Virus record (IMG/VR): IMGVR_UViG_3300020467_000038
Span: 1-26,463 of that record
Reading direction: 5' to 3' (one strand)
DNA from: a virus
Length of the DNA stretch: 26,463 bases
This document shows positions 799 through 24,000 of this stretch, one piece after another; position 1 is the first letter of the stretch; every line of letters begins with the position of its first letter. Position numbers and translations under genes: made by a program. The notes beneath the pieces are model-generated. The model saw nothing but the letters and a program-made list of their open reading frames with translations, had not been told where the DNA came from and ran no database searches.

Positions 799-824
799 AT
801 TAAAACAATTTACCAGGACTTAAA

Positions 825-1400: not shown

Positions 1401-1407
1401 ACAACTA

Positions 1408-1439: not shown

Positions 1440-1474
1440 AATTAATTATTTCCTTTAATAATTTTCTATTAAAT

Positions 1475-1510: not shown

Positions 1511-1528
1511 ACATACCAGGAGAAAAAA

Positions 1529-1795: not shown

Positions 1796-1797
1796 TC

Positions 1798-4040: not shown

Positions 4041-4044
4041 TCAA

Positions 4045-4353: not shown

Positions 4354-4525
4354 AGACGACTCAGTTAAACTTCAAGTTATGATACCTACGCAATTAGAAA
4401 AAAGAATTAATTATCTAGCTGAAGCGCAGGGAATTAATAAAGCTGACCTGGTTAAACGTGTATTAACTGTATGGTTCGAGCAAAACTATGAAGAGAAGTA
4501 TGACTTTTGGAGTCAAGTTAATTGA
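4343..4525 (+). CDS. Ribbon-helix-helix (CopG/Arc-type) regulator
   Basis: The preferred start is ATG 4343, ten bases after GGAGG (4328-4332). ATG 4334 is only one base from that site, so the three-residue longer form is unlikely. The product has the ribbon-helix-helix layout: a short strand VKLQVMIP, helix 1 LEKRINYLAEAQGI, and helix 2 KADLVKRVLTVWFEQNY. Proteins of this fold dimerise so that the paired strands enter the DNA major groove; in phages they are usually small repressors. The stop codon overlaps the TTG start of the RNA polymerase gene, so the two are translationally linked. It may autoregulate the early unit or repress host genes; the target is unknown. Confidence 0.72.
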   Translation: MLSKDDSVKLQVMIPTQLEKRINYLAEAQGINKADLVKRVLTVWFEQNYEEKYDFWSQVN

Positions 4526-6903
4526 GTACATTAGATGACCAACTAGCTAACGAAAAATTAATGCTTAATCTTGGACGAGATAGGGTAAGAGCTGTATCGT
4601 CCAGGAGGAAAGCAAACAATATGGAGAGTCTCTCTGAATACGGAGAGTCTCTCTGTTCTTTTGGTGTACAAAATATTATTTATCACTTGCGAGCTGTAAG
4701 AAAAAAGATAGAGAAGGGAAGAGCTGGTCAGAACTATGCTTTACTTACTCCATTATTAGACTTAGACCCAAGCCAGATAGCGGCGGCTTCGATAAGATCA
4801 GTAGTCGATAGCCTAAGTATGACTCCCACTTTGCACCAGGTATCTAGCAACGTGATAGAAAAGATATGGATTGAGACTATGCTAGATCGGGCAACTGATA
4901 ATGAACTAAGTAAATACAAACGTGGTCGGCATAAGAAAAGATACAGAATATTTTTAATAAACAATATGATTAATACTGAGCAATGGAACCCCAGGCAACG
5001 TATGGCAAGTGGGTTATTCATGGTTGAACTAATACAAAAACATACAGGCTTAATTGAAATAGTCCTGGACAAATCTACAACACCTCCCAAGAGGATAGTC
5101 AGGGCGACACAAGATTGTATGAATTGGATCAAAGACGTTGACGAAAAATTAAAACTAATGAGTCCTAATTTTTTACCTATGCTGGTAGAACCAAAAGAAT
5201 TTACTACTCCCTATAATGGCGGATATATAACTAAGCCAGCTCGATATAATTTATTTAAAAGTAACAACGAGATACTTGCTAAAAACATGAAGGGCAACGA
5301 ACCTTACCTTGATGCGGTTAACATCCAGGGCAAAGTTGCCTGGCAAGTAAACAAATATATATTAGACCAGGCGCTATATGCTTACGATAATAATTTAGAG
5401 ATCGGATGCCTACTACCAAGAGACGGATACTCTGTTCCTCCATATCCTAAGCATTGCGAAGCGGATAGCCAGGAGGTTTTGCAATGGAGAATAAACTGCA
5501 AGAATATAATCGACAAGAATAATTACACACAAGGTAGTCGTATTGGTATAGCTAAAACATTTTGGATGGCGAAAAAATTTAGGGATGCTGAACAATTATA
5601 TTTTCCTAAACAATTAGACTTTCGAGGAAGGATATACGATAGAGTTCCATACCTTAACAGCCAGGGCAATGATCTATCGAGGGCGCTATTACAATTTGCG
5701 AAAGGCAAGCTAATAAAAACAGAAGAAGATTTGAATTGGTTAAAGATACATGGTGCAAATATGTATGGAGTTAAGTCAGATTTTAAAACCAGAATACAAT
5801 GGGTTAACGAGAATATAAATTTAATTTATGGAGCTGGTAGAGATTGCTGGAACAAACCAGAGTTTTGGATGCGAGCAAGTAAGGCTTGGAGTTTTCTTGC
5901 TTTTTGTAGGTCAATCTATTTATATTCACAAGAACCAGATAGCTATTTATGTCAGCTTCCCTGCCATCTTGATTGCACTTGCAGTTCTATTCAGCACTTC
6001 TCAGGTTTGCTCCGTTCACAAGTAATGGGGGAGAAAGTTAACCTGGTAAATAGTGAACAGCCACAAGATATATACAGCGAGGTAGCACAAGCAGTTAACA
6101 ACGAACTAAGAATGAATGATGAAGATGTAAATAGAAAATGGTTAATGCTTAGTCCTGATAGATCACTAGCTAAACCTTGCGTGATGACAGCTCCATACGC
6201 TGCAACTAACAGCGCCTTCTATCACTTTGCTTACTCCTGGGCTAATGAAAAGATGATGAACACATTAGGTAAAGGTAAACATAACTGGCTAAAGAAACCA
6301 TTAGCTAAAAGTACTGTTGGTTACATGGCTCAATTACTTTATAAACATTCATGCCAGGCTATTAAGCCAGCAGTAGGAGCTATGAAATTTTTTAGGCACA
6401 TAGGTAGAGAGCTAGGTAAGGATAATAAGGGAGTGCAATGGCATAGTCCAAGTGGATTGCTAGTACATCAAAAGTATTTAGATCAGAAAAAATCTAGGAT
6501 ACAACTAAAATATTTATCTGACGTTTATCTGGATATAAGAACAAACATAGATACTCAAGAAGTAGATACAAGGAAGATGGCACTAGCTATCTCAGCAAAT
6601 ATATTGCATAGTTTTGATGCAAGTCACATGGCATTATCCACAATTCATGCTTCAATAGAAGGAGTCGAAAATATCGCTGGCATCCACGATTGTTTCGTTA
6701 CTACTCCGTCTGAAATGAGTGAACTGCGTAACTCAGTTAGGCAAACATTTGCTGATATGTATTCAGAGAATTGTTTATCCAAGCTAAAGGCAGAATTAAA
6801 AGCACAACTAACAGACAACCAAATAAAACATTTACCCTCCGAGCCTACGCTTGGGGAGTTAGATGTTGAACAAACTAGAACATCTACTTATTTCGTCACA
6901 TGA
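4522..6903 (+). CDS. T7-like single-subunit DNA-directed RNA polymerase (gp1)
   Basis: This 793-aa enzyme (T7: 883) should transcribe the replication and structural genes from phage promoters without host factors. Visible signatures include the DFRGRIYD and QGNDLSRALLQFAKGK blocks. The palm Asp of motif A is D484 in HLDCTCSSIQHFS. The finger motif is K551 to Y559 (KPCVMTAPY), equivalent to T7 K631 and Y639. Motif C is HDCFVTTP, with H722 and D723. The HSFDASH block lies just before it. The usual DGSCSG after the motif A Asp reads DCTCSS here, so the first Gly is replaced by Cys. The start is TTG at 4522, overlapping the upstream TGA, with TGGAG (4508-4512) as ribosome site; an ATG at 4561 would remove 13 residues. 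The stop overlaps the next start as ATGA. Confidence 0.97.
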   Translation: MSTLDDQLANEKLMLNLGRDRVRAVSSRRKANNMESLSEYGESLCSFGVQNIIYHLRAVRKKIEKGRAGQNYALLTPLLDLDPSQIAAASIRSVVDSLSMTPTLHQVSSNVIEKIWIETMLDRATDNELSKYKRGRHKKRYRIFLINNMINTEQWNPRQRMASGLFMVELIQKHTGLIEIVLDKSTTPPKRIVRATQDCMNWIKDVDEKLKLMSPNFLPMLVEPKEFTTPYNGGYITKPARYNLFKSNNEILAKNMKGNEPYLDAVNIQGKVAWQVNKYILDQALYAYDNNLEIGCLLPRDGYSVPPYPKHCEADSQEVLQWRINCKNIIDKNNYTQGSRIGIAKTFWMAKKFRDAEQLYFPKQLDFRGRIYDRVPYLNSQGNDLSRALLQFAKGKLIKTEEDLNWLKIHGANMYGVKSDFKTRIQWVNENINLIYGAGRDCWNKPEFWMRASKAWSFLAFCRSIYLYSQEPDSYLCQLPCHLDCTCSSIQHFSGLLRSQVMGEKVNLVNSEQPQDIYSEVAQAVNNELRMNDEDVNRKWLMLSPDRSLAKPCVMTAPYAATNSAFYHFAYSWANEKMMNTLGKGKHNWLKKPLAKSTVGYMAQLLYKHSCQAIKPAVGAMKFFRHIGRELGKDNKGVQWHSPSGLLVHQKYLDQKKSRIQLKYLSDVYLDIRTNIDTQEVDTRKMALAISANILHSFDASHMALSTIHASIEGVENIAGIHDCFVTTPSEMSELRNSVRQTFADMYSENCLSKLKAELKAQLTDNQIKHLPSEPTLGELDVEQTRTSTYFVT

Positions 6904-7538
6904 CTTTAAAAGCATTTTATGTCGTCACTCCTAAGTGCGTACCTCAGTATTCCTGGTTAGTCGAACCAGACACAGCCTTCAACAAACGTCCAGAATGGAA
7001 GGTTGATTTAATCCTGGACTCTAATGACCCTAAAACTCCTATTGTTGCACAGCAGATTGAAGATGGGTTTGCAGCATACAAACAATCTCTCAAAGAAGCT
7101 AACCCTAAGAAAACATTTAGGTTAGCTGACAGTACCAGGTATGAATTTACTACCCACAATGGAGCTAAGGTTTTTAAAATAAAAACCAGAAGATATGTAA
7201 GCGGTACAGATATGAATGGAAAGCCATACAACAATACACCTCCATTGCTTATGGATAAATATAAAACTCCTATTACTGGAGAAGAAAGAGAAAAATATAG
7301 AGGATTAGGAGAAGGAACAATTATCCAGGTACGACTACGTTGCGCTGGCTATGACCACCCTGCTCATGGGGTTGGATTGACTATACAGCCTGACTTAATA
7401 GTGTTCCATAACTTTGTACCTTATAGCAAAACACAAGATGAAGAAGCGACCAGCCTTGATGGGTTCGAGTTCGAGAGTGAAGAGAAGGATCTCGCACCCT
7501 CAAACCTTGACAACAGCTCAGGGGGAAATACATTTTAG
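6900..7538 (+). CDS. Single-stranded DNA-binding protein, T7 gp2.5-like
   Basis: The 212-aa product (T7 gp2.5: 232) has the gp2.5 plan. An N-terminal YSWLVEPDTAFN segment is followed by WKVDLIL and a ligand-binding beta barrel, with KLKAF-like repeated strands replaced here by TRRYVSG and IIQVRLRC. The C-terminal tail is acidic, rich in Glu and Asp, and ends in Phe. In T7 that acidic tail with a final aromatic residue contacts the DNA polymerase and helicase. It directly follows the RNA polymerase gene with an ATGA overlap, as expected for this module. The tail-coding region overlaps the start of the endonuclease gene in another frame. Confidence 0.85.
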   Translation: MTLKAFYVVTPKCVPQYSWLVEPDTAFNKRPEWKVDLILDSNDPKTPIVAQQIEDGFAAYKQSLKEANPKKTFRLADSTRYEFTTHNGAKVFKIKTRRYVSGTDMNGKPYNNTPPLLMDKYKTPITGEEREKYRGLGEGTIIQVRLRCAGYDHPAHGVGLTIQPDLIVFHNFVPYSKTQDEEATSLDGFEFESEEKDLAPSNLDNSSGGNTF

Positions 7539-7881
7539 ATCAAAGTTTGAGGCGCAAGTTGCCAAAGAACTAATAAAATCTAAAGCTAAGTTTACTTATG
7601 AAACTGTCAGTTATGATTACATCATCAGCAGTAGCTACACTCCTGACTTCATCCTCCCTAACTGCGTGGTCGAAGTCAAAGGAGTACTTACTAAAGAGGA
7701 AAGAAAAAAATATATTGCAGTTAAGGCGCAACATCCCACACTAAGAATTTGTTTTTGTTTTCAAAACGCAAGCAACAAACTTAGTAAAGCCAAGAGAAGC
7801 CTGACGTATTCAGCCTGGGCTGAACGTCATGGCTTTCCCTGGTGTAACAAGACTATCCCTAAAGAATGGTATGCCGAGTAA
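7459..7881 (+). CDS. Endodeoxyribonuclease I, T7 gp3-like Holliday junction resolvase
   Basis: T7 gp3 cleaves branched DNA and breaks down host DNA. Family motifs are present in order: FRSKFEAQVAKEL (T7 FRSGLE), a Glu in FTYETVSYDY, then YTPDFILPN with the metal-binding Asp, and VVEVKG with the catalytic Glu and Lys. An IPKEWYAE end matches T7 IPAEW. The 5' end is uncertain: ATG 7459 is used here, but TTG 7507 would start nine residues before the FRS motif, close to the T7 spacing, and ATG 7438 is also in frame. None has a good ribosome site. Whatever the start, the gene overlaps the acidic tail of the ssDNA-binding protein in another frame. It overlaps the primase-helicase start by 11 bases. 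Confidence 0.9.
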   Translation: MGSSSRVKRRISHPQTLTTAQGEIHFRSKFEAQVAKELIKSKAKFTYETVSYDYIISSSYTPDFILPNCVVEVKGVLTKEERKKYIAVKAQHPTLRICFCFQNASNKLSKAKRSLTYSAWAERHGFPWCNKTIPKEWYAE

Positions 7882-9463
7882 ATACAAAAGCAAAGAACCC
7901 TGTCCAGAGTGCGGAAGTAAAGATAACGTAGCTGTTTATGATGATGGTCATAAACATTGTTTCGGATGCGGATGGCAATATCAACCAGGTAAAGATAAAC
8001 CAACAAAAACATTTACACCAATGAAGAAACAATGGAAGCCTTTAGTTCCATTACCCTGCGAACTACCTAAACGTGGAATCACTAAAGAGACTTGCGAACT
8101 ATTTGGATATGGGATTGCAAATTTTAATGGAGCTGATTGCCAAGTAGCTAGTTATAAAAGTCAAAGCGGAATACTTGCAGCTCAACATATAAGATTTAGA
8201 GACAAGAGATTTATATGGCAAGGAGAATTAAAAGATATAAAGCTATGGGGTCAGGATTTATGGAGGCAACACAATACTGGTCAGACGTTTGTAGTTATTA
8301 CTGAAGGAGAGATAGATGCAATGTCTGTATCTCAGGTGCAAGGTAACAAGTTTCCTGTAGTAAGTTTGCCTTCGGGTGCGCAAAGTGCTACGAAGTATGT
8401 AGCTGCAAATTTATCATGGTTATCTCAGTTCGTCCGTATAGTTATTTGTTTTGACTCGGACGCACCTGGTTTGGATGCTGCCGAAAAGGTTGCAAAAGTC
8501 TTACCTACTGGTAAGGCAGCTATCGCAAACCTACCAAGAAAGGATGCTAATGAAATGCTCCTCGCAGGGGAGGGCGAGTTACTTAAAGATTTGCTCTGGA
8601 AAGCAAGTCCTGTCAGACCCGATAACATACACTCTGCCTACAGTTTATGGGAAGATTTAATTAAGGAAGATACCTCGAAGGTATGTAGTTATCCCTTCCC
8701 AGAACTAAATAGAATATGTTGTGGTTTTCGTAAACAAAGTCTAACTACTATCTGCGCTGGCACAGGGGTTGGCAAGAGCCTACTTTGTAGGGAGCTGGCG
8801 CATCACTTCTTAGTTAATGGACTTCGGGTAGGTTGGATTGGTTTAGAAGAAAGCAGCAAGAGAAGTTTGCAAGGCATACTATCTATTGCACTTAACAAAC
8901 CATTACACCTGGACGAGAAAGCAGTAGATCAAGATGAATTAAGACAAGCCTTTGATTATTTATTTAGCGACAATAACTTTATATTGCTTCAGCACTTTGG
9001 TTCACTAGACCCTGACCGATTGATAGATCAGATTACATACATGGCAACTGGCGAGGAATGTGACGTTATATTCCTGGATCATATTTCCCTGGTAGTAAGT
9101 GGACTAAGTGATGGAGACGAGAGAAAACAAATAGATGTATGCTGTACCAAACTGAGACAAGTGGTAGAAAAAACTGGAGTAGGTTTAGTTATGGTTAGTC
9201 ACTTAAGAAGGACGGATGGTAAGCCAGCAGAGGAAGGCGGAGACGTTAACTTGCAAAGTTTGAGAGGGAGTTCGAGCATAGCTCAGTTATCTGATTTGGT
9301 TATATGTGGTATTAGATCGCAGCAAGACGAGGCAACATCAAACGAACTACAGTTAAAAGTATTAAAGAATAGGCATAGCGGTACATTAGGTCGGGCTGAC
9401 AAGCTCGAATACAACGAGAAAACTGGCAGACTATCTGCCTCCCTTACTGATTTTTTATTATGA
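7871..9463 (+). CDS. Primase-helicase, T7 gp4-like
   Basis: A 530-aa bifunctional replication protein (T7 gp4A: 566). The start at ATG 7871 places the zinc-binding residues C11, C14, C30 and C33 (CPEC and CFGC) at the N-terminus, as in T7. The TOPRIM primase domain follows, with E145 in VVITEGEIDAMS and the D195/D197 pair in CFDSDAPG. The ring helicase domain has Walker A GTGVGKS (G297-S303), Walker B in CDVIFLDHISLV, the VSHLRR motif and a GSSSIAQLSD segment. It would unwind the fork and prime lagging-strand synthesis. In T7 the next gene is DNA polymerase; here the stop overlaps the exonuclease start by four bases (ATGA), so no polymerase gene intervenes. Confidence 0.97.
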   Translation: MPSKYKSKEPCPECGSKDNVAVYDDGHKHCFGCGWQYQPGKDKPTKTFTPMKKQWKPLVPLPCELPKRGITKETCELFGYGIANFNGADCQVASYKSQSGILAAQHIRFRDKRFIWQGELKDIKLWGQDLWRQHNTGQTFVVITEGEIDAMSVSQVQGNKFPVVSLPSGAQSATKYVAANLSWLSQFVRIVICFDSDAPGLDAAEKVAKVLPTGKAAIANLPRKDANEMLLAGEGELLKDLLWKASPVRPDNIHSAYSLWEDLIKEDTSKVCSYPFPELNRICCGFRKQSLTTICAGTGVGKSLLCRELAHHFLVNGLRVGWIGLEESSKRSLQGILSIALNKPLHLDEKAVDQDELRQAFDYLFSDNNFILLQHFGSLDPDRLIDQITYMATGEECDVIFLDHISLVVSGLSDGDERKQIDVCCTKLRQVVEKTGVGLVMVSHLRRTDGKPAEEGGDVNLQSLRGSSSIAQLSDLVICGIRSQQDEATSNELQLKVLKNRHSGTLGRADKLEYNEKTGRLSASLTDFLL

Positions 9464-10200
9464 CTTTATTAATTGACGGAGATCATCTAGCTTTTACAGC
9501 AGCTTGCGCAGTAGAACAAGTAGTTGAGTGGGATATTAATGTATGGACTACTCATTCTTTTTTAAGTGATGCAACTAAAGTAGTCGAAACAAAACTAAAA
9601 GGCTTTATTGATATAGCTGAAGATAAAAAGGTAGTGATGACATTTAGTTCATACCCTACATTTAGACATGAAATATACCAGGACTACAAAGCAAACAGAA
9701 TAACTAAGCGAAAGCCTACAGTATTTAAACCATTAATAGAATGGATGGAAGGGGAATGGGAGTCAATAAGATACGCTAACTGCGAAGGGGATGACGTATT
9801 AGGAATCTTGGCTACATCAAAAACTTATGATGATCCAGTAGTAGTAAGTGTCGATAAAGATATGAGAACTATACCTTGCAAGTTATTAGCTGGAGACGAT
9901 CTCGAACTAATAACTAAAAGACAAGCGGATAGAAACTGGATGAAGCAAGCGTGTAGTGGAGATCCAACTGATAACTATAAAGGTATTCCAGGTGTAGGTT
10001 TGGTAGGAGCTGACAAGATACTAGGAGATAGTATTAAGCTAGATGATATGTGGGAAAAGGTAGTTGAAGCATACAAGAAACAAAAGCTAACTTATGCTGA
10101 CGCATTATTAAACGCAAGATTATCCAGGATATTAAGACAAGAAGATATTAATTTGAATACAGGAAAAATTAAATTGTGGTCGCCAAAGAAAAAATTATAA
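9460..10200 (+). CDS. 5'-3' exonuclease, T7 gp6-like
   Basis: T7 gp6 removes RNA primers and degrades host DNA for nucleotide supply. The 246-aa product (T7: 300) lacks part of the T7 N-terminus but has the nuclease landmarks: LLIDGDHLAF near the N-terminus, YKANR in the arch region, EGDDVLG, VSVDKDMRTIP, and the helix-hairpin-helix-like GDPTDNYKGIPGVG block with two Asp. The C-terminus ARLSRILRQEDIN...LWSP matches T7 closely. The acidic residues for two metal ions are therefore present. It starts within the helicase stop codon. The last three codons of the gene overlap the end of an opposite-strand gene. Confidence 0.93.
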   Translation: MTLLIDGDHLAFTAACAVEQVVEWDINVWTTHSFLSDATKVVETKLKGFIDIAEDKKVVMTFSSYPTFRHEIYQDYKANRITKRKPTVFKPLIEWMEGEWESIRYANCEGDDVLGILATSKTYDDPVVVSVDKDMRTIPCKLLAGDDLELITKRQADRNWMKQACSGDPTDNYKGIPGVGLVGADKILGDSIKLDDMWEKVVEAYKKQKLTYADALLNARLSRILRQEDINLNTGKIKLWSPKKKL

Positions 10201-10347: not shown

Positions 10348-10363
10348 AATAAATAAGTAATAT

Positions 10364-10573: not shown

Positions 10574-10575
10574 CT

Positions 10576-10887
10576 ATGTGCGGAGGCGGAGGTCGTCCAC
10601 CTGATAGGTCGGAAGAAACTCTTAGGTTACAGCGTGAACAAATGGCTGAACAGAAGAGACAGTATGAACAAACAAGAGCCGATCAACAGGCAAGGCAGCA
10701 AGAGCAAGAAAAGATTGCATCTGCTCCATCTGCTCCGCCTCCATCTGCTACAGCCGAACGTCCAGCAGCAGCACTTGAAATACCTGGAGGAGATCCAGGA
10801 CTAGGAGCTGCACAACAACGTAGAGGATATGGTAGAAAGAGATTAAGAACAGATTTACTCTCTGGCTCAGGTTTACAAATACCTTAA
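10576..10887 (+). CDS. Conserved small protein preceding the portal (103 aa)
   Basis: The product begins MCGGGG, followed by a Gln-, Glu- and Arg-rich stretch that should form a helix or coiled coil (residues 12-47), a Pro- and Ala-rich linker, and the C-terminal RRGYGRKRLRTDLLSGSGLQIP. The 'RRG-x-x-x-LR-D ... GLxIP' ending is a recurring feature of small proteins found next to portal genes in marine podoviruses. It lacks a signal sequence, so the Cys-2 is not a normal lipobox. GGAG about eight bases before the ATG is a plausible ribosome site. A minor virion or portal-associated role is likely from position, but not shown. Confidence 0.75.
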   Translation: MCGGGGRPPDRSEETLRLQREQMAEQKRQYEQTRADQQARQQEQEKIASAPSAPPPSATAERPAAALEIPGGDPGLGAAQQRRGYGRKRLRTDLLSGSGLQIP

Positions 10888-10891
10888 ATAA

Positions 10892-12616
10892 ATGGAAGTC
10901 ACACTAACAAGTGACTTGGATGCTACAGGTAAGTCCTACTCCGACATGGAGAAAAAAGGAATTACTGTAGCGTCTAAGTACGAACAACAAAAAGCAAAGC
11001 GTAATCCCTATGCGGATATAGCGAGAAAGTGTGCAGAACTAACTATCCCTTTTGAGTTTCCAGATACACAATATTCTGGTTCGGCTAGGGCTAGGATCAC
11101 TACTCCCCATCAAAGCGTAGGAGCTAGAGGGGTTGCCAATATTGCTAACAAGCTAGGGCTATCTCTCTTCCCTCCTAATACAAGTATGTTTAAGTTAGAG
11201 ATAGATGACTTAGCGTTAAGACTCCAGGACGTAGATCCACAACAAAAGACAGAACTAGATAGCGCTTGCGTAAAGGTAGAGTTAGCAGTTAATACAATGC
11301 TCGAAACATTATCTGCAAGAGCAGCATTGTACGAAGCATTTAAACAATTAGTTATTGCAGGGAATGTATTGTTATATGTAAACCCAACTGGTATTCGAGT
11401 ACTGCACCTTGAAAGATATACAGTTACCAGAGATCCAATGGGTAACGTAGAAGAAATAATAATAGAAGAGGAAGTAAACCCTAAGTTACTTCCAAAAGGT
11501 TTTCTATCCCCTTCGGATGCAAAGCAATACGATAAGGATTATGGGAAGAAAGATGTAAAAATTTATACTTGCGTTAAATACAAAGATGATAAGTGTCATT
11601 GGTATCAAGAGGTAAAAGGTAAACCAGTTCCAGGAACTAATGGTATGAGTCCGAGGGAATGTAGTCCATTCATCCCACTACGTTTCCAATCAATGGACGG
11701 AGAGGACTACGGACGTTCATACATTGAGCAATGGTATGGCGACCTTTCTGCTCTTGATAATTTGTATCAGGCAGTATTGGAGGCTAGTGCAGCCATGAGT
11801 AAAATTTTATTTATGGTAAATCCCAATGGCACTACAAGGCCAAGAGCCTTAAGCAATGCCGAAAACGGAGCTATCATCCAGGGCAATGCGCAAGACGTTA
11901 CAGTTTTACAAAGCCAGGGCAAGTTAAATGATATGAGCCTGGCAAACAATACTATAGATAGGATCGAAGCCAGGCTTGAGTTTGCTTTCTTGTTTAATAG
12001 TGCAGTACAAAGACAGGCCGAAAGAGTTACAGCCGAAGAGATACGTTATGTTGCCGAGTCGTTAGATGAAAGTCTAGCTGGTTTGTATTCTGTATTAACC
12101 CAAGAACTACAACTACCTTTAGTTCGTAGGTTGATATATATAATGCAAAGAACAAATAAGATACCTGACTTTCCTAAAGGAGAAGATGGAAAAGATTTAA
12201 TGATGCCTAAGCCAGTTACAGGTTTAGAAGCTGTAGGTAGAGGAGACGACAGAAATAAATTAATGGACTTTATTGGAGCTGCAACTGAAACACTAGGCAA
12301 AGAAACAATAGAAAAATATATCAATATGGAAGAAGCATTAAGAAGGTTAGCAGCAAGTAGTTCTATTGATGTAACTAATTTAGTTAAGACTCCGCAACAA
12401 TTACAGGAAGAACAGCAAGCAGCAGCCCAGGCGCAACAAGAAATGCAACAACAAGAAATGATGAGTAATATGATAACAAGCCCTGCTGCTGGCAAAATAG
12501 CAGATAATTTCACACAACCAGGTATGCCCTATGGCGCTCAAATCGAACCAGGAGGAGAAGGCGAGCAAGGAAACGCAGCCCTCCCCAACCTTAGCAACAT
12601 CCCAACCGCCACTTAG
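10892..12616 (+). CDS. Portal (head-tail connector), T7 gp8-like
   Basis: The 574-aa product (T7 gp8: 536) would form the dodecameric ring at the capsid vertex through which DNA is packaged and ejected. Matches to T7 run along its length: QSVGARGVANIANKL near the N-terminus, FKQLVIAGNVLLY, DGEDYGRSYIEQWYGDL, ARLEFAFLFNSAVQR, then ERVTAEEIRYVAESLDESL and TQELQLPLVRRL, TGLEAVGRG. The C-terminal 100 residues are Gln- and Ala-rich and probably flexible, as in T7. The gene starts four bases after the upstream stop and has no visible ribosome site. Confidence 0.96.
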   Translation: MEVTLTSDLDATGKSYSDMEKKGITVASKYEQQKAKRNPYADIARKCAELTIPFEFPDTQYSGSARARITTPHQSVGARGVANIANKLGLSLFPPNTSMFKLEIDDLALRLQDVDPQQKTELDSACVKVELAVNTMLETLSARAALYEAFKQLVIAGNVLLYVNPTGIRVLHLERYTVTRDPMGNVEEIIIEEEVNPKLLPKGFLSPSDAKQYDKDYGKKDVKIYTCVKYKDDKCHWYQEVKGKPVPGTNGMSPRECSPFIPLRFQSMDGEDYGRSYIEQWYGDLSALDNLYQAVLEASAAMSKILFMVNPNGTTRPRALSNAENGAIIQGNAQDVTVLQSQGKLNDMSLANNTIDRIEARLEFAFLFNSAVQRQAERVTAEEIRYVAESLDESLAGLYSVLTQELQLPLVRRLIYIMQRTNKIPDFPKGEDGKDLMMPKPVTGLEAVGRGDDRNKLMDFIGAATETLGKETIEKYINMEEALRRLAASSSIDVTNLVKTPQQLQEEQQAAAQAQQEMQQQEMMSNMITSPAAGKIADNFTQPGMPYGAQIEPGGEGEQGNAALPNLSNIPTAT

Positions 12617-12704
12617 TAAAGTGGAAGTTACAACTGACTCTCCCGATTTACCCAGGGAAATAGTCATTACACCAGAAATGGTTAAAGAATTTAAAAACAC
12701 TTAA
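12531..12704 (+). CDS. Small ORF overlapping the portal end (57 aa)
   Basis: This ORF starts in the +2 frame inside the last 86 bases of the portal gene and continues beyond it, filling the gap up to six bases before the scaffold gene. The product starts MALKSNQEEKASKETQ, is Pro- and Ser-rich in the middle and ends with EIVITPEMVKEFKNT. That end reads like a real helical terminus rather than random translation. A shorter form from GTG 12621 would keep only this part (27 aa). There is little ribosome-site signal. No family was recognised. Confidence 0.45.
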   Translation: MALKSNQEEKASKETQPSPTLATSQPPLSKVEVTTDSPDLPREIVITPEMVKEFKNT

Positions 12705-12710
12705 TTAATT

Positions 12711-13490
12711 ATGCCAGAACCAATCACTATTACTGACCAGGGTACACCTTCCTTATCGGAAGATAACCAAGCTGCATTAGAAGAACTAAAGCAAGCTGAA
12801 GCGGATCTTGAAAAAGAGAACGTAATCGCCCAGGAAGAACAATTAATAGGAGGCGAGTTCCAATCGCAAGAAGATTTACTTGCTGCCTACCAGGAATTAA
12901 AAGCTAACCAAGACCAGTATCGTCCTCCAGGAGAACCGCAAACTGCTCAAGAAATTTATGGAGAAGCGGTTGGCAACAGACTTGAAGAAGCTGGAGTTAA
13001 CTATTCAAAGATGAATGATTACTGGCAAGAAAATGGAGAGATTACAGACAAGCATTACAAGGAGCTGGAGAAGGCTGGCTTTCCCAGGGGGATAGTTGAT
13101 GCACATTTAGATGGTTTAAGAAACCAGGCAACTGTATTACAATCTGATCTTGTAAATATTAAGAATACATACGGAGGAGAAGAAGCCTTTACTGCTATGC
13201 AATATTGGGCTAGGGATAATTTAACTGACGCAGAAAAAGCAGCTTACTCTAAAGGTATTAATGGAGACTTGGAAACAGTTAAGTTAACTGTTGCTGGACT
13301 TCATGCCAGGTACGCAAATTCTGTTGGTAACGAGCCTGATCTAATCTCTGGAAAAGCTGCAACTTATTCAAGTGATAAGTTTGAAAGTACTGCTCAGTTA
13401 GAAGAAGCAATGAATGATCCTCGATACAAAAAAGATCCAGCCTTTAGAGCCAAGGTTGAAGATAGATTAAGTAGGTCTAGTATTTTTTAA
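12711..13490 (+). CDS. Capsid assembly scaffold, T7 gp9-like
   Basis: The 259-aa product (T7 gp9: 307) is highly charged, acidic and mostly helical, as expected for scaffolding proteins that line the procapsid and leave before DNA fills it. The N-terminal half is Gln- and Glu-rich coiled-coil sequence (ALEELKQAEADLEKE). The centre includes GGEEAFTAMQYWARDNLTDAE, typical of T7-group scaffolds. The C-terminus has MNDPRYKKDPAFRAKVEDRL, the usual capsid-contacting end. It follows the portal, as in T7. The capsid gene normally comes next but is absent: the stop codon overlaps that of a minus-strand gene. Confidence 0.9.
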   Translation: MPEPITITDQGTPSLSEDNQAALEELKQAEADLEKENVIAQEEQLIGGEFQSQEDLLAAYQELKANQDQYRPPGEPQTAQEIYGEAVGNRLEEAGVNYSKMNDYWQENGEITDKHYKELEKAGFPRGIVDAHLDGLRNQATVLQSDLVNIKNTYGGEEAFTAMQYWARDNLTDAEKAAYSKGINGDLETVKLTVAGLHARYANSVGNEPDLISGKAATYSSDKFESTAQLEEAMNDPRYKKDPAFRAKVEDRLSRSSIF

Positions 13491-13795
13491 ACATCCCAAT
13501 TAACTAACTTCTTGGCTGCTGTCTGTTCGTCAGTAGTCATTTCCGTTAGTGTGACAGTATCATTAACCCAATTAGTAGGATCGAAGTTTGCTTCAGCAAC
13601 GACTATTGCATAGGTTAATTCTGTTGTGTCGTTTTTAAATGGGTCTAGTAGTTTCATCCAATGTCTGTCTTTATCTTTGGATGCTACTTTCTCCATCATC
13701 CCAATGCCATTTGGTAAAGTTTTGCCTGTTAGTTCATGCTTATACCATTTAGTATAAAGCGATTTAGTTTCTGAAAAAGGTTTGGTTACATCCAT
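13487..13795 (-). CDS. Small protein downstream of the adhesin (102 aa)
   Basis: This is the last gene of the minus-strand tail block, starting four bases after the adhesin stop. The product has a WYKHELTGKTLPNG segment, DRHWMKLLDPFKNDTTELTYAIVV in the middle and an Ala- and Asp-rich end. It is soluble with mixed strands and helices. Its position right after a receptor-binding gene suggests a fibre chaperone or a minor fibre part, but no motif confirms either. Its TAA stop shares bases with the scaffold's TAA on the other strand, so no transcription terminator separates the two converging units. Confidence 0.65.
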   Translation of the reverse strand: MDVTKPFSETKSLYTKWYKHELTGKTLPNGIGMMEKVASKDKDRHWMKLLDPFKNDTTELTYAIVVAEANFDPTNWVNDTVTLTEMTTDEQTAAKKLVNWDV

Positions 13796-13799
13796 AGTT

Positions 13800-16700
13800 T
13801 TATCCGTTTGTATCTAGTGTAGCCCAACTTGTGAATCCGCAATCATATCCACTACTACTATAATCCCCCTGCTGATACCAACTATTATCTCCACCTGTAT
13901 AGTGATCTCCATGTTTACTTATCCAGAACCAACCATGTTCTGAACCATATCCAAGATGGGTGTACCCTCCCTGCATACATTGTGCTGGTTGATCTGGCCA
14001 ATGAATAAAGTACGGAACCCAATAATCTTGGTATCTTAGATAATGCTGGCTGTCGTTTTCATTCATTCTACTTGGGGTGTAATTCCAATACCCTGCAAAA
14101 AATAGCGAGCCATGTTCATCCATTATTACGACACCTTGGCTAGTACTTTCGGGAATTGCGTATGGCATAATCTCAACTATCTTACCTATCTTCATTTTCT
14201 TTTCATTGCTACCGCCAAGCTGGAAACTATCCCAGTTACCTATAGCTTCATTTGGTCTGCTGTTATCTCCACCATCTTCAAAGTCTCCAAAGTCAGAGAA
14301 TAATATTTCCCCACCAAACCAGCCACCTAAAGTAGCAGAGTTAGTATGACTATTAGGAGAGTTATTAGTTCCTTGTATTCCGTAATAATTAGATGCTGTT
14401 GAGTATATCTTTTGACTCTTACCAGTAGAACCACCATCCGTTATAAACCATAAAGTTGAATATCTATTATTGGTACAAGCCATGTAGATAACTTTTTGGT
14501 CTTGGCTATTCCATAGGCTGCTGGAGTTAGTAAGTATTCTAGGCATACCATTAGTTCCAGAACTACTAGAGTCAAATACACCTGTCTGCTGTCCGTAGTC
14601 TCTCCAGTAACCAGCGTAGTAAACTTCTCCATCTTCGGTTAGCCACCATGTTCTACCTTCAGCGTCAGCATCTTGGTTACATACGATATGAATTATTTTC
14701 TTGCCATTTAAAGGAGAACCACTAACTGCTGTTACTTCAGCAAAATCACTTCTATCGGAAGTATTATTTAACCCTAGCTGACCTTGACTTCCATAACCTG
14801 TTGACCAACACTTGCCTGATTCAGTAATAACTAAAGTGTGTGTGTATTGATAACCACTACAGATTACATATAATATTTTTTCATTATTAAATACACTTGC
14901 TGGTATTCTTGTTGCGTAGTAAATATGAGTGGTATTTCCTTTACCTAACTGTCCATATCCATTGTAACCCCAGGTATATAGATAGCCTTCTGTATCTACT
15001 GCATACCATGAACCATAGTCGTTACTATTGGTGTCTTGAGTATGAGCATGAGTACAAGCAAATTGTTTAATCTTTGGATAGCTTGTACCTTTTAATTCAG
15101 ATGTACTTTCGTCATACCATTTCATAGGGCATTGACCAGTATTTCTATCTCTAGTACTTCCATCCCCCATAGGTCCATATCCGTTGTAGCCACCAAACCA
15201 GACCATGCCATTTTCACATAAATGATGTTTAATAGCTCTATTGCCATGAACCTGTAAAACTCTAGGAAATCTATGCTTTATGTTTCCATTTTCATCTAGC
15301 AACCCAATGTCGTTACCATTTAAATCTGTAAGTAAATGAGCATAGTCTGGATTACCAGCTAATGCCTGTCTTAATTTGTAGCCTTGTACCTTACTTCCTT
15401 TATGTGGATGCCACCTAGACCCTTGACCAGCATCCTGTCCGTCTATTCCAATACCTCCACCATATACATAGTCGTTACCATCATGATAGAAGTTACCCCA
15501 GAGGCAAGTTTCCCTACCTCCTATATATCCACCCTGTCTGTACATTCCAGAGTTACAACCATACTGATAGCCTCGACCAACTTTCTTTAAATATTCTGGT
15601 AAAGGTTTAATAGACTCTGTATATGTATTACCAGCCTGGTTAGGGAAATTATTAAACTGCAATATTCCTGACGTTGCATCCCGATAGTTTTCTTTTATAG
15701 AAGCAAGAACACTTCTTTCTTCAAAATCTCCACCTGTATAAGAAGGTAAAAATGTTCTGTCAATAGGAAATAAAGGTAGTCCATCTGTACCGCCACTATA
15801 ATCTTCTATTGTTAATGTTGTTGGTACTGTTTCTGGAACAGTAAAGGTAAAGAATCCTCCAGCAGTAGGGGATGTCTGTACGTTTACAGGGCTGACACCA
15901 GTTAAGAATGAACCTCCAACTGTATATGGGTTATAAGCTCCGTCACTTGAATCTTTGATTGCATAACTTCTACTAGCAGCAGTAGGAGGAAATTCAAATG
16001 TATAGCTTTTTCCTTTAACAAGTTTTCTAGCGGTTGGCCCTTGCTGAGTTACGCTAGAGTAAACAGTTGGTAAATTAACATTGCCTGAGTAATCTCCATA
16101 TCCACTACTTCCGTTATGTCCTGAGTCAATAGTGCTACCCATACCACTATGAGCAGTACAGTAATATCCAGTTACCATTGCTGCGTAAGGAGGCATCTTA
16201 AGAGTTACAGTTGCACCAGCACTTCCTACAGTTCCAGCCCTTGTAACATAACCACCATCCTGTGTTGATAAAGGTACTGAGCCATTAAATATGCTGACCG
16301 CAAAATCTAGTTCATGCGTTACGTTAGAAGCGTCAGATACATCAAAGATATAAACAGAGTTAGCTCTTAGATATATATAAGGAGCCTCGACACCATCTAA
16401 ATAAAATTTACTGTTAGCTACAGTAACCGCATAAGTTTTAGTTTCGTATGGAGGGTAGTTTGTGCCATGCAGCAAAGTAGCAGTATGGGTACTACTTACG
16501 ACTAATCTGTTATATATAAGAACTGTATCGTTTGGTATATCGTGGTTTGGTGCTTCCTTGACTCTTAGGACTTGACCTTTAGTTCCAACAGGTAACCTGG
16601 TATTTGTTGTATTATCTTTATCTCTTACAAGTAAGTCTCCAGATGTAGTCAAGACATCAGCACTAGGAGCATTAACTAAAGTAGCAAAATTAGAATCAGC

Positions 16701-17021
16701 AGCAGGGTTACTACTACTAGGAATAACATAGTATAAAGTAGCTCCTTGATAAATATAAGTTGCGTTATTGTATTGAACTATATCTCCTTTTTTAAAGCCT
16801 TGCCCTATTGAATAAGTTCCCCTGTAATTAAGACCAGATGCCATCTGAGTATAATTGGTACTGTCTTGCGAAGGTGCAGTATTTTGAGCATTAGTTAAAG
16901 GTAGTATTACTAGATAACTTGTGCCTTCAAAGTAAACTATGTCATCAACTTCGTATGCGGTTGCAGTAGTCCAGTTACCCTTCCAAGTAAACTTGAGTTT
17001 TCCTAAATCAATTTGTGCCAT
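13800..17021 (-). CDS. Giant tail-fibre adhesin with RCC1-like repeats and a cupredoxin-like domain
   Basis: The 1073-aa product is probably the receptor-binding part of the tail. Two N-terminal modules (about residues 12-60 and 68-115) share a W-x-x-x-x-AYEVDDIVYFEG-like pattern, as in carbohydrate-binding modules. Residues about 175-300 carry a beta domain with H236, C288, H291 and M294 (in the motif YYCTAHSGMG), a His-Cys-His-Met set like type 1 copper sites. From about residue 600 to 1070, blades with G-x-N-x-Y-G-Q-L-G (WGYNGYGQLG near 682, GYGSQGQLGL near 740) recur, marking RCC1-like propeller repeats. A Gly- and Tyr-rich segment lies near 490-560. It follows the fibre anchor gene with two bases between. 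Confidence 0.85.
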   Translation of the reverse strand: MAQIDLGKLKFTWKGNWTTATAYEVDDIVYFEGTSYLVILPLTNAQNTAPSQDSTNYTQMASGLNYRGTYSIGQGFKKGDIVQYNNATYIYQGATLYYVIPSSSNPAADSNFATLVNAPSADVLTTSGDLLVRDKDNTTNTRLPVGTKGQVLRVKEAPNHDIPNDTVLIYNRLVVSSTHTATLLHGTNYPPYETKTYAVTVANSKFYLDGVEAPYIYLRANSVYIFDVSDASNVTHELDFAVSIFNGSVPLSTQDGGYVTRAGTVGSAGATVTLKMPPYAAMVTGYYCTAHSGMGSTIDSGHNGSSGYGDYSGNVNLPTVYSSVTQQGPTARKLVKGKSYTFEFPPTAASRSYAIKDSSDGAYNPYTVGGSFLTGVSPVNVQTSPTAGGFFTFTVPETVPTTLTIEDYSGGTDGLPLFPIDRTFLPSYTGGDFEERSVLASIKENYRDATSGILQFNNFPNQAGNTYTESIKPLPEYLKKVGRGYQYGCNSGMYRQGGYIGGRETCLWGNFYHDGNDYVYGGGIGIDGQDAGQGSRWHPHKGSKVQGYKLRQALAGNPDYAHLLTDLNGNDIGLLDENGNIKHRFPRVLQVHGNRAIKHHLCENGMVWFGGYNGYGPMGDGSTRDRNTGQCPMKWYDESTSELKGTSYPKIKQFACTHAHTQDTNSNDYGSWYAVDTEGYLYTWGYNGYGQLGKGNTTHIYYATRIPASVFNNEKILYVICSGYQYTHTLVITESGKCWSTGYGSQGQLGLNNTSDRSDFAEVTAVSGSPLNGKKIIHIVCNQDADAEGRTWWLTEDGEVYYAGYWRDYGQQTGVFDSSSSGTNGMPRILTNSSSLWNSQDQKVIYMACTNNRYSTLWFITDGGSTGKSQKIYSTASNYYGIQGTNNSPNSHTNSATLGGWFGGEILFSDFGDFEDGGDNSRPNEAIGNWDSFQLGGSNEKKMKIGKIVEIMPYAIPESTSQGVVIMDEHGSLFFAGYWNYTPSRMNENDSQHYLRYQDYWVPYFIHWPDQPAQCMQGGYTHLGYGSEHGWFWISKHGDHYTGGDNSWYQQGDYSSSGYDCGFTSWATLDTNG

Positions 17022-17023: not shown

Positions 17024-18001
17024 TTAAAGTAGTTCGAGAATTAAATGCCCATTACTGTTAATGGAAAACTTAGGAGCATTTGGAGCAGTAGTGGATAATA
17101 CATCCTCGCCTAAAAAGTAGGCATGACTACCTCCATTTTGGACGAAATCTTCTGCTTTGTAAACAGTAGTATCGTTGGCTTCATTATATGTCATTTGCAA
17201 TGTTCCGTCACTTAGCTTTTTAAAACCTACAAATATTGACCTACGAGCTAAGTTAACTGCTGTAATTGCTGAAGCTGAAGCACTATCTTTAAAGCCCTCA
17301 GCTTCGTCTCTAAATACTTTAGTTTCATCCTTATAATCTTCAGCCTGGTCTGCCGATTGCGCTGCTGCTGTTTGAGCTGTATTTGCAGTAGATATACCTT
17401 GATTAAGTTGTAATAAATTAACTGCGTCTGTATCTAGTGTCGCTGTTTCCACATTTTTTATTTTCTTACCACCAGCATTAAAGTCTCCGACCATAGGCAC
17501 AGAGCCATCTGTCTTAAGAAAACCAGCAATATTATCATCTACATAACTTTTAGTCGTAGCATCCTGTGGATTTGTAGGGTCTTGAACATTAATTATTGGG
17601 TTGTTACTTGCGTCTAATCCTACAGGTGTAAAGTTAATACCAGCGTCAGTATCATCTTTTGCTTCCTGGAGTCCATACAATAACTGCAATACAGCAGTAT
17701 CGAGGTCACTAGCTGTTAATGTCGAACCATCCACAAAATCCACCAGGGCATTAAGCAATGGGGTTTCTCTACTAATTAATATTTCTATTCCTGTTTTTGG
17801 TGCGCCTGTGGTTTCTTGCTCGTTAGTTGCTACAGAGTTAAGAGGTGCAAACTCAATAGTAGTGTCGTTTATATATACAAAATTAGTATTAGCTATTTGG
17901 TTTAAAGATACAATAATGTGATCCTTTTTAACGTATGGAAAAGGAATTTGAAATTGTCTTGTAGTTCCGTCTCCAGAACCTTGGAATTGAGCAAAAGGCA
18001 T
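17024..18001 (-). CDS. Tail-fibre anchor with T7 gp17 N-terminal domain
   Basis: The first 130 residues match the T7 tail-fibre N-terminal domain that fixes the fibre to the tail: FQIPFPYVKKDHIIVSLN, a beta segment, the ETPLLNALVDFVDGSTLTAS block and LDTAVLQLLYGLQEAKDD. A linker (about 130-190) then leads to an Ala-, Asp- and Gln-rich helical stretch (ISTANTAQTAAAQSADQAED), likely a trimeric coiled coil, and a short beta C-terminus. At 325 aa it is shorter than T7 gp17 (553) and lacks a receptor-binding tip, so the next gene probably supplies it. It starts within the stop of the upstream giant gene (TAATG), implying translational coupling. Confidence 0.93.
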   Translation of the reverse strand: MPFAQFQGSGDGTTRQFQIPFPYVKKDHIIVSLNQIANTNFVYINDTTIEFAPLNSVATNEQETTGAPKTGIEILISRETPLLNALVDFVDGSTLTASDLDTAVLQLLYGLQEAKDDTDAGINFTPVGLDASNNPIINVQDPTNPQDATTKSYVDDNIAGFLKTDGSVPMVGDFNAGGKKIKNVETATLDTDAVNLLQLNQGISTANTAQTAAAQSADQAEDYKDETKVFRDEAEGFKDSASASAITAVNLARRSIFVGFKKLSDGTLQMTYNEANDTTVYKAEDFVQNGGSHAYFLGEDVLSTTAPNAPKFSINSNGHLILELL

Positions 18002-21000
18002 TAACCTGTTCTAACGTCTGAATTTACTATAGATCGCCAAGCCTCAACTTGGTTGGGGAAATCATTAGTAGTTTGTGCTACTTCTTTATTTAATATCTTA
18101 TTTTCATTTTGTAAATGTTGCAAATATGGTTTTGTATTAATAAAATATCTTACTGCTGCATCCCTGTATTTTTTAGCTAATTGGTCTATAGCATATAATT
18201 TTGTCAGCATTGCACGTTTTGACACTATATTTCTAGGCAGACCAGTTGCGTCAAACTCTGGATCATAGTCAGGTAATTCTTTGTAGGCATCACTATTAAT
18301 TAATCTTTCCAGGTCTTGCGCAAAAGTTAAGCCACTTCCATTTGGATCTTTGAGAGTAGTCATTAATTCTCTAAACTCCATAAATTCCTGGTTACTCATT
18401 ACATAACCCTTAATGCCTAAGCTAGTTCTTGTACTAAATCTTGGGTATGCACCAAAACCATGTAGCCTGGATAACTCTTTATAAACAGTTCCGTTTCTTT
18501 CTTTAGTTGGTCTAAACATTGCCAATGGATGTATGTTCATTACTAATGATCTTAAAAGAGGATTTTTAATATTTTCAGCTCCATAGGCATAGTCATATTC
18601 TACTGGCTGTCCATAAATAGGATCTAGTTCTGGTGTTCCAAATAGATTTTGTAATCCAGGTATTTCACTTAATAACTCCGTTGCCAGGTCGGATGCTGTT
18701 GCGTACCAGGTTCTTTCTCCTGTTGTTGCATTTACCGATTCATTTATTAAGTATCTTTTATTATCAAATCCAATTCTTGTTTGCCTTAACAAAGCTAATG
18801 GCATTTTCATATAACGAGCAATAGTTGTTTCAAGCATATTGCGTTTACCAGTATGTATATATTGGTTGCCACTTTCTTCTGTTTGCATTAATTCTGTAAT
18901 TAAATCATAAAAATTACCAATATTAGCCATAACACTTTTTCTAAAGTAACCAACAGTATTTTCTTTAACAGTATCCCCTATAGCTTTAGCTGCTGTGTAG
19001 CCATCAAATCTTCTTAAAGTATGAGCATTAGCAATAATATATGCTTCCTGAGCCTTATCGCTGTAAACAATTTCATCATTTTCTGTATATGGTATTTCAA
19101 ATTGATCGTCTCTAGGCATACGTTTTATAGCATCTACATATCCTCCTATTGAACCAAAAATGAAACTAGCGGTATCAAACATATCCAATGAATACCAATC
19201 TGACCATTCATTACTTCCAGGAGTTCTAAATCTTATTGCGTTTGGAGGTCTGTGCATATATCTATTTAATCTATCTCTGTTAGGGTTTGTACTTTGTGGG
19301 CCACTAAATTCAACAAGTCCTGTAGCTACAGCTCCAATACCTAGCGCAAATAAATGTTGACTTGTAGCTATTTCTCCTATAGCTCTTTCTCTTTGGAATA
19401 AATCTTCTGATGTTATATCTCTCCAATAACTATCTACCAATCTGTTAGTTGGTAAAGGCAAATGCCTTAATGCACTTTTTACTAAGTTTAATGGAGTTCT
19501 GTTTGTTGGGAATACGACACCTAAAAGCGGTACTGCTCTTGTAGCTTTATGTATTCTTTTTGAAGGATAATTTAAAATTTGCTGACCAAGCTCGTCAAAA
19601 CCTGTTTCAGTAGAAGAAAGACCTTTTCCAAAAACTCTAAATTGATCGTTAGTAGGTTCAGATGCTTTAGTAAAATATTCTAAATTGTTTAAATCAGCAT
19701 CATTTCTGTATTGCTCTGCAAATTCTAAAATATCCTCTGGTTGTGTTAATCCTTTTTCTTGCGCCCTTCTTATTCCGTATTCAACTGTTCTTTCATTTCT
19801 GTCAACTTCTATGCTGTCGGTAAAGTTTACATAATCAACAGCTTGCCTTGCGTGAACACTATCCATAAATCCACCTTTTATTACGCTTCCATCTGGCATT
19901 TCTACATCTGCCAATGATCTATTTAATGCTGCTTCTGCTTTTTTATGCGCTTCATTAAATATTCTAGGGTCGTGCATATCAAATCCCTGAGCCATTTTTT
20001 GGAATAACTCTTGTTCCATTAGCCTGGCATATTCATAGGAAGGTGCAACTGTCATACCAACTAACGTATCTAACCCACTCATAACTCTCGAAGCTCCTGA
20101 TCCAAAAGTAGTTTTAACTCCTTTAGTTAAATAATGTGTTGCCAGTATTACTGGATTTGTTTCTGGATTTGTTAAATGTTTAGCTACACCCTTACCTCCA
20201 CTTAACATTCTCCTTGCTTCGTCATCTATTTCTTCTTGAACATAATCATCAAATCTTCTTATTTTTGGTTGTTTATTTGGATTTTTACTTTTTCTATAGC
20301 CATCTGCCTCGAAATAGCCTCTGTTAATATTTCCAAAAACTTCATCATGCTTTACAGCAGATAAAGCCAACCTAAAAGCGTGTGCAGAATGAACAAAATA
20401 TCTAAGATACATAGTCAAGTTTAATTGCTGCCTCATTCTTGCCATTCTTGCTCCATCCATATCTCCAGCAGCTAAAGCCTTACGTTTTGTTTTTCCAGCT
20501 CCCATATATTGTGAATAAGGTAAAGTAACAGCTCTAAATAAACTACCTCCTAAAACTTTTCCAAGTGTTGCAGAGTTCAAGAAAATACCATTCCTTGCTA
20601 TTTGAGCAATTTTTTCTTGTGTTAACTGACCTTTACCTACATTGTCTAAACCTTTGGCAAAATTAGTCATAAAATTATTCATTGATTTAGTTCTGTCTTT
20701 ATATAAATAAAGTGATTCAGCAATAATTTCCATAATTTCTCTAGCTCTTTTTGTAGGTTTGTTATTCATAACGCTTTCATAATCCTTTTTACTCATTAAG
20801 TTTTCAAAAATATTTTCTTGTTCTAATACAGCTTTTTTAAATACACCAGGAATAGATTGCTGTTCTGGTATATCTGCTGGATCTGAACCTTCTTGTATCT
20901 GCGCTTTTGAGTTAATTATTTTATTAGCTTGATTACTGTCTGGAACATAAATAATGTCGCCTGGTTGACCAAACTCTGTACCATCTACCCTAATTCCTTG

Positions 21001-24000
21001 ATATTTCTTAGAAGCTAAATATTCAGCTAATGCTCCTTTCTGCTCAGCAGTTAATTTGCCATCTAAAACAGCACCAACATTTTCTATGTTTAATTCTTGT
21101 AATAACTTAGAAAGTGATTTATTTTGAGAAGTTAAATCAAGAATCATAATATCTGCATTTACGACTCCATCTACATAAGTACTTTTTTCTCGGACTTCTC
21201 CTCCGTCCATAGATTTAAAATATGTACCTTTTCCTAATCCTTTATCTTGGACTAATCCAGCTTCTTCTACTCCTTTCTCAAGAGCTGTTGTACCTGTTTT
21301 TGTTGTAGCTACATCTACTTCTATATGTTGATATGGAGGTATAAACATTTCTTGACCGCCCAAGAAATCCATTTGCTGCATCCTTAAGTTTTGCGCAGAG
21401 GGTCTATTAACCTCAGCTATTGCAACGCTTACTTTCATTGCATCTTCCCATAAAGATATTAATAATGATTTTGATGTACTATCGTTGGGGTTTAATTTTA
21501 TATCTAACGCTACTTCTTTCATTTGCTGTATCTGTACGTCTCTTTGTAAAATTATTGCTGCTTGGGCGACTTGTTTTTGCAATGCGTTTTTATCTCCTCT
21601 CATTGCTTTTTTGTGCAAAGCCAATATTTCATCTGTTCTAAAATTACTTTCTGTTATTAATTGCAAGCCTAATCTTTTCATGTTTTCCATAGTAAAAGAA
21701 GGCACTTTTGTAGCATCTTCTCTTGTTCCTAATAGTTCAAACAAGCTAGTTTCAAATGCTTTATTAGTAGCAATTAAATCGGCTTCGCTAGTTGGTATAT
21801 ATCTTTTGCCATCTGGATTTAGTTTTCTATTTATTAATCTTCTATATAATCCGTCCATTGCTTCTTCAATAGTCATATCTCCGTCTCTTATTGCAACCTT
21901 TATAGTCTCTAGGTTTTCTGTAAATTCATCTGGATTTAATGCAAAACTAGCTGGTTCTGGAGCTGTATTGCCTGGTATATTTTTTGCAAAACGAAAAGGT
22001 CTAGGAGTTCTTTCTGCTAATCTTCCAGCTTGTGCGTCTCTAAATATATCTTTATAAGTTTTAAAGCCATAACCCGAAAGTTTGTTGTTTATTTTTTCTG
22101 CAATTTCTTTTAATTTTCTAAATGGCTGTAGCCAAGTAGGTTCTTTGGCAAAATCAAGTTCATCAAATACTGAAAAAGCAAATGCCTGGACTTCTCTTTC
22201 ACTCATTCTTTTAGCACCAAATAAATATTTTTGATGTTTAGGATAGAAAGATGCGACTATTTCCCTTAACTGTCTATCTACTGCTGGACTATCTAATAGT
22301 CTTTGCTCTTTAAGAGTTAAATATCTATCTTGTATTCTATGGAATGATTCATGTCTCAATGTCTGCATCATTGATCCAAAGTTTATAAAATGACTTTTAT
22401 AAGTCATTGCAAGAATTATTAAATCTTTTGCAGGGGTTGAACCAAACTTGAATACACCTTTAGCTCTACCAGTTCTACCTATTGCGCTAGGAGGTAAACC
22501 ATAGTCGGCTGCTGCCTTTGCAGTTATTTTAGGTTCAATAGCATCAACAAGACGTAAGTTTTGGACGTTCGCACCAGCTATTTTTCTAGCTATATCAACT
22601 AATTCTTGCGCTTGCTGTTCAGTAAGATTTACGTCAGCATTAACATGATCGTTACCCATGTTTGTATATATATCATCTTCCAACGCAAACTCTAATTGCT
22701 CATTATTTTTAGGATCAAGTGGATCAAAATTCTTAGGGTTAGTCGAGTCTTTGTATTCTTTGTTGTATTTATCCTGGAGTTTTTTGTTTGCTTTCTTTAC
22801 ATTTTCATTTTCTATTTCTCTTAAATCATCTAGCTCGAAATCCCCTTTCTTTAAATTTTTGTCAAACATTTCTGGTTTATATCTAGGATCTTTTCGTACC
22901 CAACCTCGTTCGTCAGTATAGTTTCCTATAATTGTAAATCTGCCATTTCCTAACATTTTTCCGCCTCTAGTTGCTATTGGCGCTTCTATCGAATATTCAT
23001 AAGCTCTACTATTCTCTAATATTAAAACTCCGTCCTCTGGATCTTGTGCTGCTAATTCTTTTAATTGGTTTTTTATTTTTATAAAACTTTCATATTGTCT
23101 GTTTGAAGGTATGCCAACCTCTTCTAAAAACGCACGAAATTCTCCGTCTTTAGCTGAAGGTTTTTTGTTCCATCTATTACCTGTAATATATATAGCTTTA
23201 TCAATATCATTAGCAAACTCTATTTGATATTTTCCATATCTAGGTTTTGCAGTACCAGCCCATTTTTCGTTATCAAACCTTAAAGTCATTGGATGTCTAA
23301 CCTTTAATATCTTCCACATATCAGCAAAAGTTACTCTACTTACATCCCCTAGTTCTTTAAATTTAAAACCACCTCTTGTACTTATAGGTAATTTTTTCTT
23401 ATTAGCATTAGTAACAGTACTCTTTAATGTTTCTCCAATCTTTGAATGATTTTTGTTTAACGAACCATTGTTACCTACTAATTCATCTTCTATGTCAAAA
23501 ATTTCTTGCTCTGAATATCCCTGCAATAGTTCTTCTTTTTCTTTATTTACAACTTTTTGTACTTCTTCCCTGCTAATAGGCTCAGGCTTTTCGTTTCTTA
23601 AAAGGTCGTTAGCTTTTTCATTTAACTTAGCATCAACTTCTTTTTGTACTCTTGCTGGCTCTGATTCAATCTTAGTTAGAGGTGCGTCATCCCCTGCCAT
23701 AGCTGATTTTATTGTTTCAAAGTTATTTTTTATTATTTGATTTGCGCTAATTTTATTAGCTTTCATTTGAGTAGCTAACTCGTTAATTAATCTGTTTGTA
23801 TCTGAAACTGTATATGCTAAACCCTCAAACCTTTCAACTTGTCTTTCTGCCTCAAGCCTTCTATCAACTGAATCGTCATAAGCAATTTTGTTTCCTTGTA
23901 CTTTTTCAATAGCAGCTTTTTTATTTTTTTGAGTTACAGCTCTTAAACCGCTTATTTCTGTTCTAAGTGTTTTTAAAAATGCTTCAGCTATAGCGCTTAT

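Follow-up and report, generated by a model that had tools for sequence, protein, structure and literature searches.

A capsid-to-fibre operon read in reverse in a clade of T7-like phages related to the MPP-C cyanopodoviruses

Coliphage T7, the archetype of the Autographiviridae, carries genes that all run one way, and this textbook one-way order of the T7-like phages is tied to timed gene expression and to RNA polymerase-driven entry of the genome. Among the cyanopodoviruses, the MPP-A and MPP-B phages such as Syn5 possess a T7-type RNA polymerase, portal, scaffold, capsid, gp11/gp12 and fibre module, in common with the phages considered here. Their genomes are reported to be highly syntenic (PMC4646655), unlike the flipped clade described below, and to encode a DNA polymerase (PMC9860041), unlike the DNA analysed here. 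The MPP-C cyanopodoviruses, represented by the isolates P-SCSP1a-u (PMC9860041, PMC10575957), are reported to lack the DNA polymerase gene (PMC9860041). In P-SCSP1, the portal, scaffold, capsid, gp11 and gp12 genes are followed further on by the fibre genes and h28, all on the plus strand, and then by a stretch in which most genes, the large terminase among them, lie on the minus strand. Words beginning with "inver" are absent from the main texts of PMC9860041 and PMC10575957, and among the open-access papers retrieved, no title or abstract opening reports an inversion such as the one presented here in T7-like cyanophages.

The window, i.e., the whole stretch of DNA analysed, represents part of a T7-like phage genome and corresponds to a linear IMG/VR virus record of 26,463 bases made of a single contig. 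According to the ORF map, its plus strand holds the genes from the RNA polymerase (4522) to the scaffold, and the large genes to the right of the scaffold lie on the minus strand. The left arm (4522..10200, plus strand), assigned from PHROGs, comprises the T7-type single-subunit RNA polymerase (PHROG 414, 4.7e-177), SSB, endonuclease, primase/helicase and exonuclease genes, in the order of P-SCSP1a. It is followed on the same strand by the portal or head-tail connector of 574 aa (10892..12616; PHROG 449, 1.8e-158) and by the scaffold or capsid assembly protein of 259 aa (12711..13490; Pfam PF05396, 1.8e-14; PHROG 1052, head assembly). Among isolates, the 17 P-SCSP1 Prochlorococcus phages of the MPP-C clade come nearest (RNA polymerase 53%, portal 54-55% and scaffold 43% identical), the Syn5 portal being more distant (39%); a cyanobacterial host, Prochlorococcus, is thus suggested by relatedness. 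In a concatenated tree, the window clade forms a branch separate from the P-SCSP1 isolates, with low backbone support. No match to the family-A DNA polymerase (PF00476) occurs in the window, in seven near-complete relatives or in P-SCSP1a, while control genomes do match. The window clade and the MPP-C phages resemble each other in the set and order of their left-arm genes, the lack of DNA polymerase and the minus-strand terminase block, but the isolates are co-directional from portal to fibre whereas the capsid-to-fibre block of the window clade is flipped and bears other fibre cassettes.

As proposed in the first-pass annotation and confirmed by gene calls, the tail block reads on the minus strand, opposite to the head genes. 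From the junction rightwards, it consists of a 102-aa gene closing the fibre cassette on its 3' side (13487..13795), conserved in 24 loci and devoid of Pfam or PHROG matches, an RCC1-repeat tail fibre protein of 1073 aa (13800..17021; PF00415, 1.3e-12; PHROG 9851, tail fibre; PF25390, 1.2e-41, just below the family cut-off), a 325-aa tail fibre with the N-terminal anchor domain of T7 gp17 (17024..18001; PF03906, 4e-29), and a very long ORF of 2812 aa in the position of the internal virion protein gp16 (18001..26439). The latter has no Pfam match and is assigned from its position and its homologues in the relatives G002, G006 and G025; T7 gp16 is about half its size. RCC1 repeats are normally known from eukaryotic-type beta-propellers. 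Coliphage T7 shares with these phages the modules and their order, the gp17 anchor domain and the scaffold family, but in the window clade the late block runs towards the scaffold from the opposite strand. Structural genes co-directional with the early and middle genes, a usual but not formally defining trait of the Autographiviridae, are not what is found here.

The two blocks meet with zero spacer at 13487..13490, the left inversion breakpoint, where the convergent TAA stop codons of the scaffold (plus) and of the 102-aa gene (minus) share TTAA inside TTTAAA (13486-13491), exactly as first described. Both the GC skew and the AT skew change sign at this point. The overlap itself does not qualify as a special feature, since the palindromic stop TTAA is supplied by the conserved TTTTAA ending of the scaffold and serves as the end point of many different minus-strand cassettes. 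The absence of a terminator between the converging units also holds, since a scan of 12400-14600 yielded one weak match away from the junction, for a mean of 1.8 in shuffled sequences; RNA folding at the junction gave z values of -1.4 (plus strand) and -0.3 (minus strand).

A junction of this kind in a metagenome contig could result from the erroneous joining of two T7-like phages at 13487, the alternative raised with the first description, especially as fibre cassettes common to several lineages could mislead assemblers. In this respect, G004, one of the long contigs backing the flipped order, differs in scaffold allele from one end to the other and may be mixed. However, in at least 33 contigs from 29 datasets, with scaffolds 60-100% identical to that of the window, the next recognisable gene is on the minus strand in all cases, and a plus-strand capsid follows the scaffold in none of the 33. 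The 29 datasets are counted by IMG identifier, so some perhaps derive from the same sampling campaign or from re-assemblies, and the locus counts, obtained from IMG/VR searches of up to 80 loci each (38 with the scaffold, 24 with the 102-aa protein), are not to be read as frequencies. Moreover, a separate contig, IMGVR_UViG_3300020448_000075, crosses the junction with 99.96% identity to positions 2711-13864 of the window (11.2 kb), also spans positions 1-3865 at 99.8%, and bears h34, terL, h31 and h30 in the expected order beyond the left end of the window. The other breakpoint was found as well, and an assembly artefact deserves almost no credence. The junction is fixed in the window's own lineage: close relatives are flipped without exception, and co-directional order is confined to the more distant MPP-C phages (scaffold 43%). 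Contig 3300029319_000129 (L082/L083/L066) has a scaffold gene towards each end, with 61% and 87% identity to that of the window, and is possibly a mixed population or an assembly made via a shared fibre cassette.

The window has no capsid gene because the contig breaks off where gp16 begins, and none of the contigs that could be joined to it carries its own continuation on the right. The near-complete relatives G001, G002, G003, G004, G006, G025, G026 and G027 do possess, rightward and on the minus strand, the tail-tube and capsid genes that were predicted. The portal, scaffold and fibre anchor of T7 type are found in the window itself and the T7-type capsid in relatives only. The capsids of these relatives are 78-79% identical to that of P-SCSP1. 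Read in the direction of the window, G001 runs from the RNA polymerase to the portal and scaffold on the plus strand, continues on the minus strand with the 102-aa gene, two fibre genes, gp16, gp15, gp14, h18, gp12, gp11 and the capsid, and then shows h28 on the plus strand and h29, h30, h31, terL and h34 on the minus strand. The seven other relatives match this order over the parts they cover, fibre cassettes excepted. The plus-strand gene h28, which in MPP-C comes right after the fibre block, here adjoins the capsid: at this right breakpoint the two genes diverge across a constant gap of 112-113 bp in the near-complete relatives, and the same divergent arrangement occurs at 27 or more capsid loci. 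Directly past the capsid gene of L078 (16824-16934, minus strand), the hairpin GGGAGTAAACTTACTCCC is followed by TTATTATT; the T7 terminator, which stands after gene 10, is placed likewise.

Compared with P-SCSP1, the order of the relatives has both of its breakpoints at operon edges and therefore corresponds to a clean two-breakpoint inversion. It is thus very probable that the inversion about the junction proposed in the first-pass annotation is real and inherited, the flipped order of the capsid-to-fibre operon having been passed to a diversified clade which includes the window. An MPP-C-like T7-type cyanophage would have inverted its late operon once, with one breakpoint separating the scaffold stop from the 5' leader of the capsid and the other separating the last gene of the fibre cassette from the plus-strand h28; the divergence is too deep for the ancestral breakpoint sequences to be rebuilt. 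A segment with fibre genes at one end also recalls the phase-variable tail fibres whose orientation is switched by a site-specific recombinase. Such a switch is nevertheless very improbable, given the single orientation in every clade member found, the extent of the segment, which is the whole virion block of about 21 kb rather than a fibre switch, and the lack of a recombinase among the window genes run through family searches. Inverted repeats between the two junctions are not in evidence either, the longest match in five contigs (8-11 nt) being the same as in random pairs.

Conservation of the scaffold extends as far as its stop codon, and the gene beyond varies across contigs: it belongs to the 102-aa/RCC1 cassette, to a diverged version of this cassette, or to MPP-C-like fibre genes. 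Identities are mismatched across the junction, scaffolds 97-99% identical occurring with fibres of 41-43%, and scaffolds of 61-62% with a 102-aa gene of 96%. With respect to the window, L038 has for example a scaffold of 99%, a fibre of 43% and a gp16 of 95%, and L033 a scaffold of 61% and a 102-aa gene of 96%. Since, in addition, the same cassette stands co-directionally in another lineage (G012, G013), the fibre module is, as judged from these comparisons, exchanged between lineages at the edge of the junction. Module exchange of this type is known for the host-recognition islands of marine phages. The RCC1-repeat cassette (13800-17021 in the window) is seen in flipped and co-directional phages alike. 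The evident mobility of the fibre cassettes lends some weight to a replacement, in which the original capsid-to-fibre block would have disappeared and its homologue from another phage would have been inserted in reverse. However, the capsid, gp11 and terL each resemble those of MPP-C phages, a single clade is returned by the concatenated tree, which combines genes from inside and outside the block, and an inversion in place requires fewer steps, which makes such a replacement unlikely.

About 110 nt upstream of the capsid are conserved in the co-directional phages and in clade C, a second flipped clade dealt with below, and contain the hairpin CCNUUGCGANGG, the third pair of which is U-A, C-G or G-C across all 21 representatives. 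Outer elements ACCUAGA/UCUAGGU occur in many members, e.g., L002:10155-10268 and L078:17922-18033 (minus strand). No Rfam family matched in any of six sources, capsid leaders included, and this structured leader is possibly a new phage RNA element. The flipped clade to which the window belongs, clade A/B, has a recognisable version of it, e.g., CCUUGCGAGG or CUUUGCGAAG, which aligns with the co-directional leader and has the same hairpin core. With a model derived from the leaders of co-directional and clade C phages, three of the four best matches in 320 kb of flipped A/B sequence fall exactly at the capsid start, with weak genome-wide E-values (0.67-1.9) and in three closely related sequences. 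From position and alignment, the leader appears to have moved together with the capsid, which would place the left breakpoint between the scaffold stop and the leader.

In T7, the main late promoter precedes the capsid gene. A search of the genome for repeats of the capsid-upstream sequence disclosed no promoter motif; nevertheless, by analogy with T7 and with a leader that seems to have accompanied the capsid, the flipped operon has probably retained a phage RNA polymerase promoter of its own above the leader. The phages would have tolerated the inversion since the block makes up a complete transcription unit, whose leader and presumed promoter would have travelled with the capsid and would now stand, divergent from h28, in the gap of 112-113 bp. 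Late transcripts would start before the capsid gene, extend through the fibre genes in the direction of the scaffold and face the middle operon tail to tail; as no terminator was found at the junction, the two units would be convergent. The T7 genome is drawn into the cell largely by transcription and, if an entry of T7 type applies, one may guess that antisense read-through of the flipped block may be needed for genome entry.

The flipped phages of clade A/B form one clade in a tree of portal, capsid, gp11 and terL (100/100), also recovered among 79 capsids (SH-aLRT 98). The window, which has the portal alone of these four genes, stands outside the four-gene tree and is placed by the 91-100% identity of its RNA polymerase, primase, portal and scaffold to clade A contigs. 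The second flipped clade, C, comprises G017, G018 and three more contigs, and is separate in these trees. Portal and capsid are on one strand in every phage record among the matches listed for both genes; with outgroups and more distant phages co-directional, the co-directional order is therefore the older state. That clades A/B and C stem from two separate inversions at a recurrent breakpoint, a refinement of the inherited inversion rather than its rejection, has somewhat less than an even chance. The two clades are not sisters in free trees, the capsid tree calls for two changes, and the breakpoints differ, a 72-aa gene standing between scaffold and fibre in G017 and beyond the capsid in G018; on the other hand, a single origin is not rejected by the AU test (p 0.58), the constrained tree scoring even slightly better. 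Within clade C, the 72-73-aa gene thus follows the scaffold in G017 and lies beyond the capsid in G018 (L230/L231), where h29-h31 are also flipped relative to the terminase.

A separate inversion was observed in G030 and its relatives, in which the terminase-to-exonuclease block (terL, RNA polymerase, SSB, endonuclease, primase and exonuclease) is flipped and the portal-to-fibre block is co-directional. It is whole in one contig, 3300020411_000820 (L243/L244), with related loci L155, L156, L158 and L223; terL lies on the plus strand directly before h8/portal in five contigs, L187 included.

It may tentatively be suggested, with a likelihood below even, that MPP-C-like phages underwent several operon-sized inversions (A/B, C and G030 type), so that whole operons with their own promoters would act as reversible bricks. 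If true, the terminator-free convergent junction would imply that antisense transcripts over about 21 kb of the late genes are tolerated or used, e.g., in RNA polymerase-driven genome entry. The flipped clade departs from the one-way gene order thought to be typical of T7-like phages, and the curation of metagenomes that treats such joins as chimeras would throw away real ocean phage genomes. A natural clade with a reversed late operon represents a ready experiment on how much of the gene order is required.
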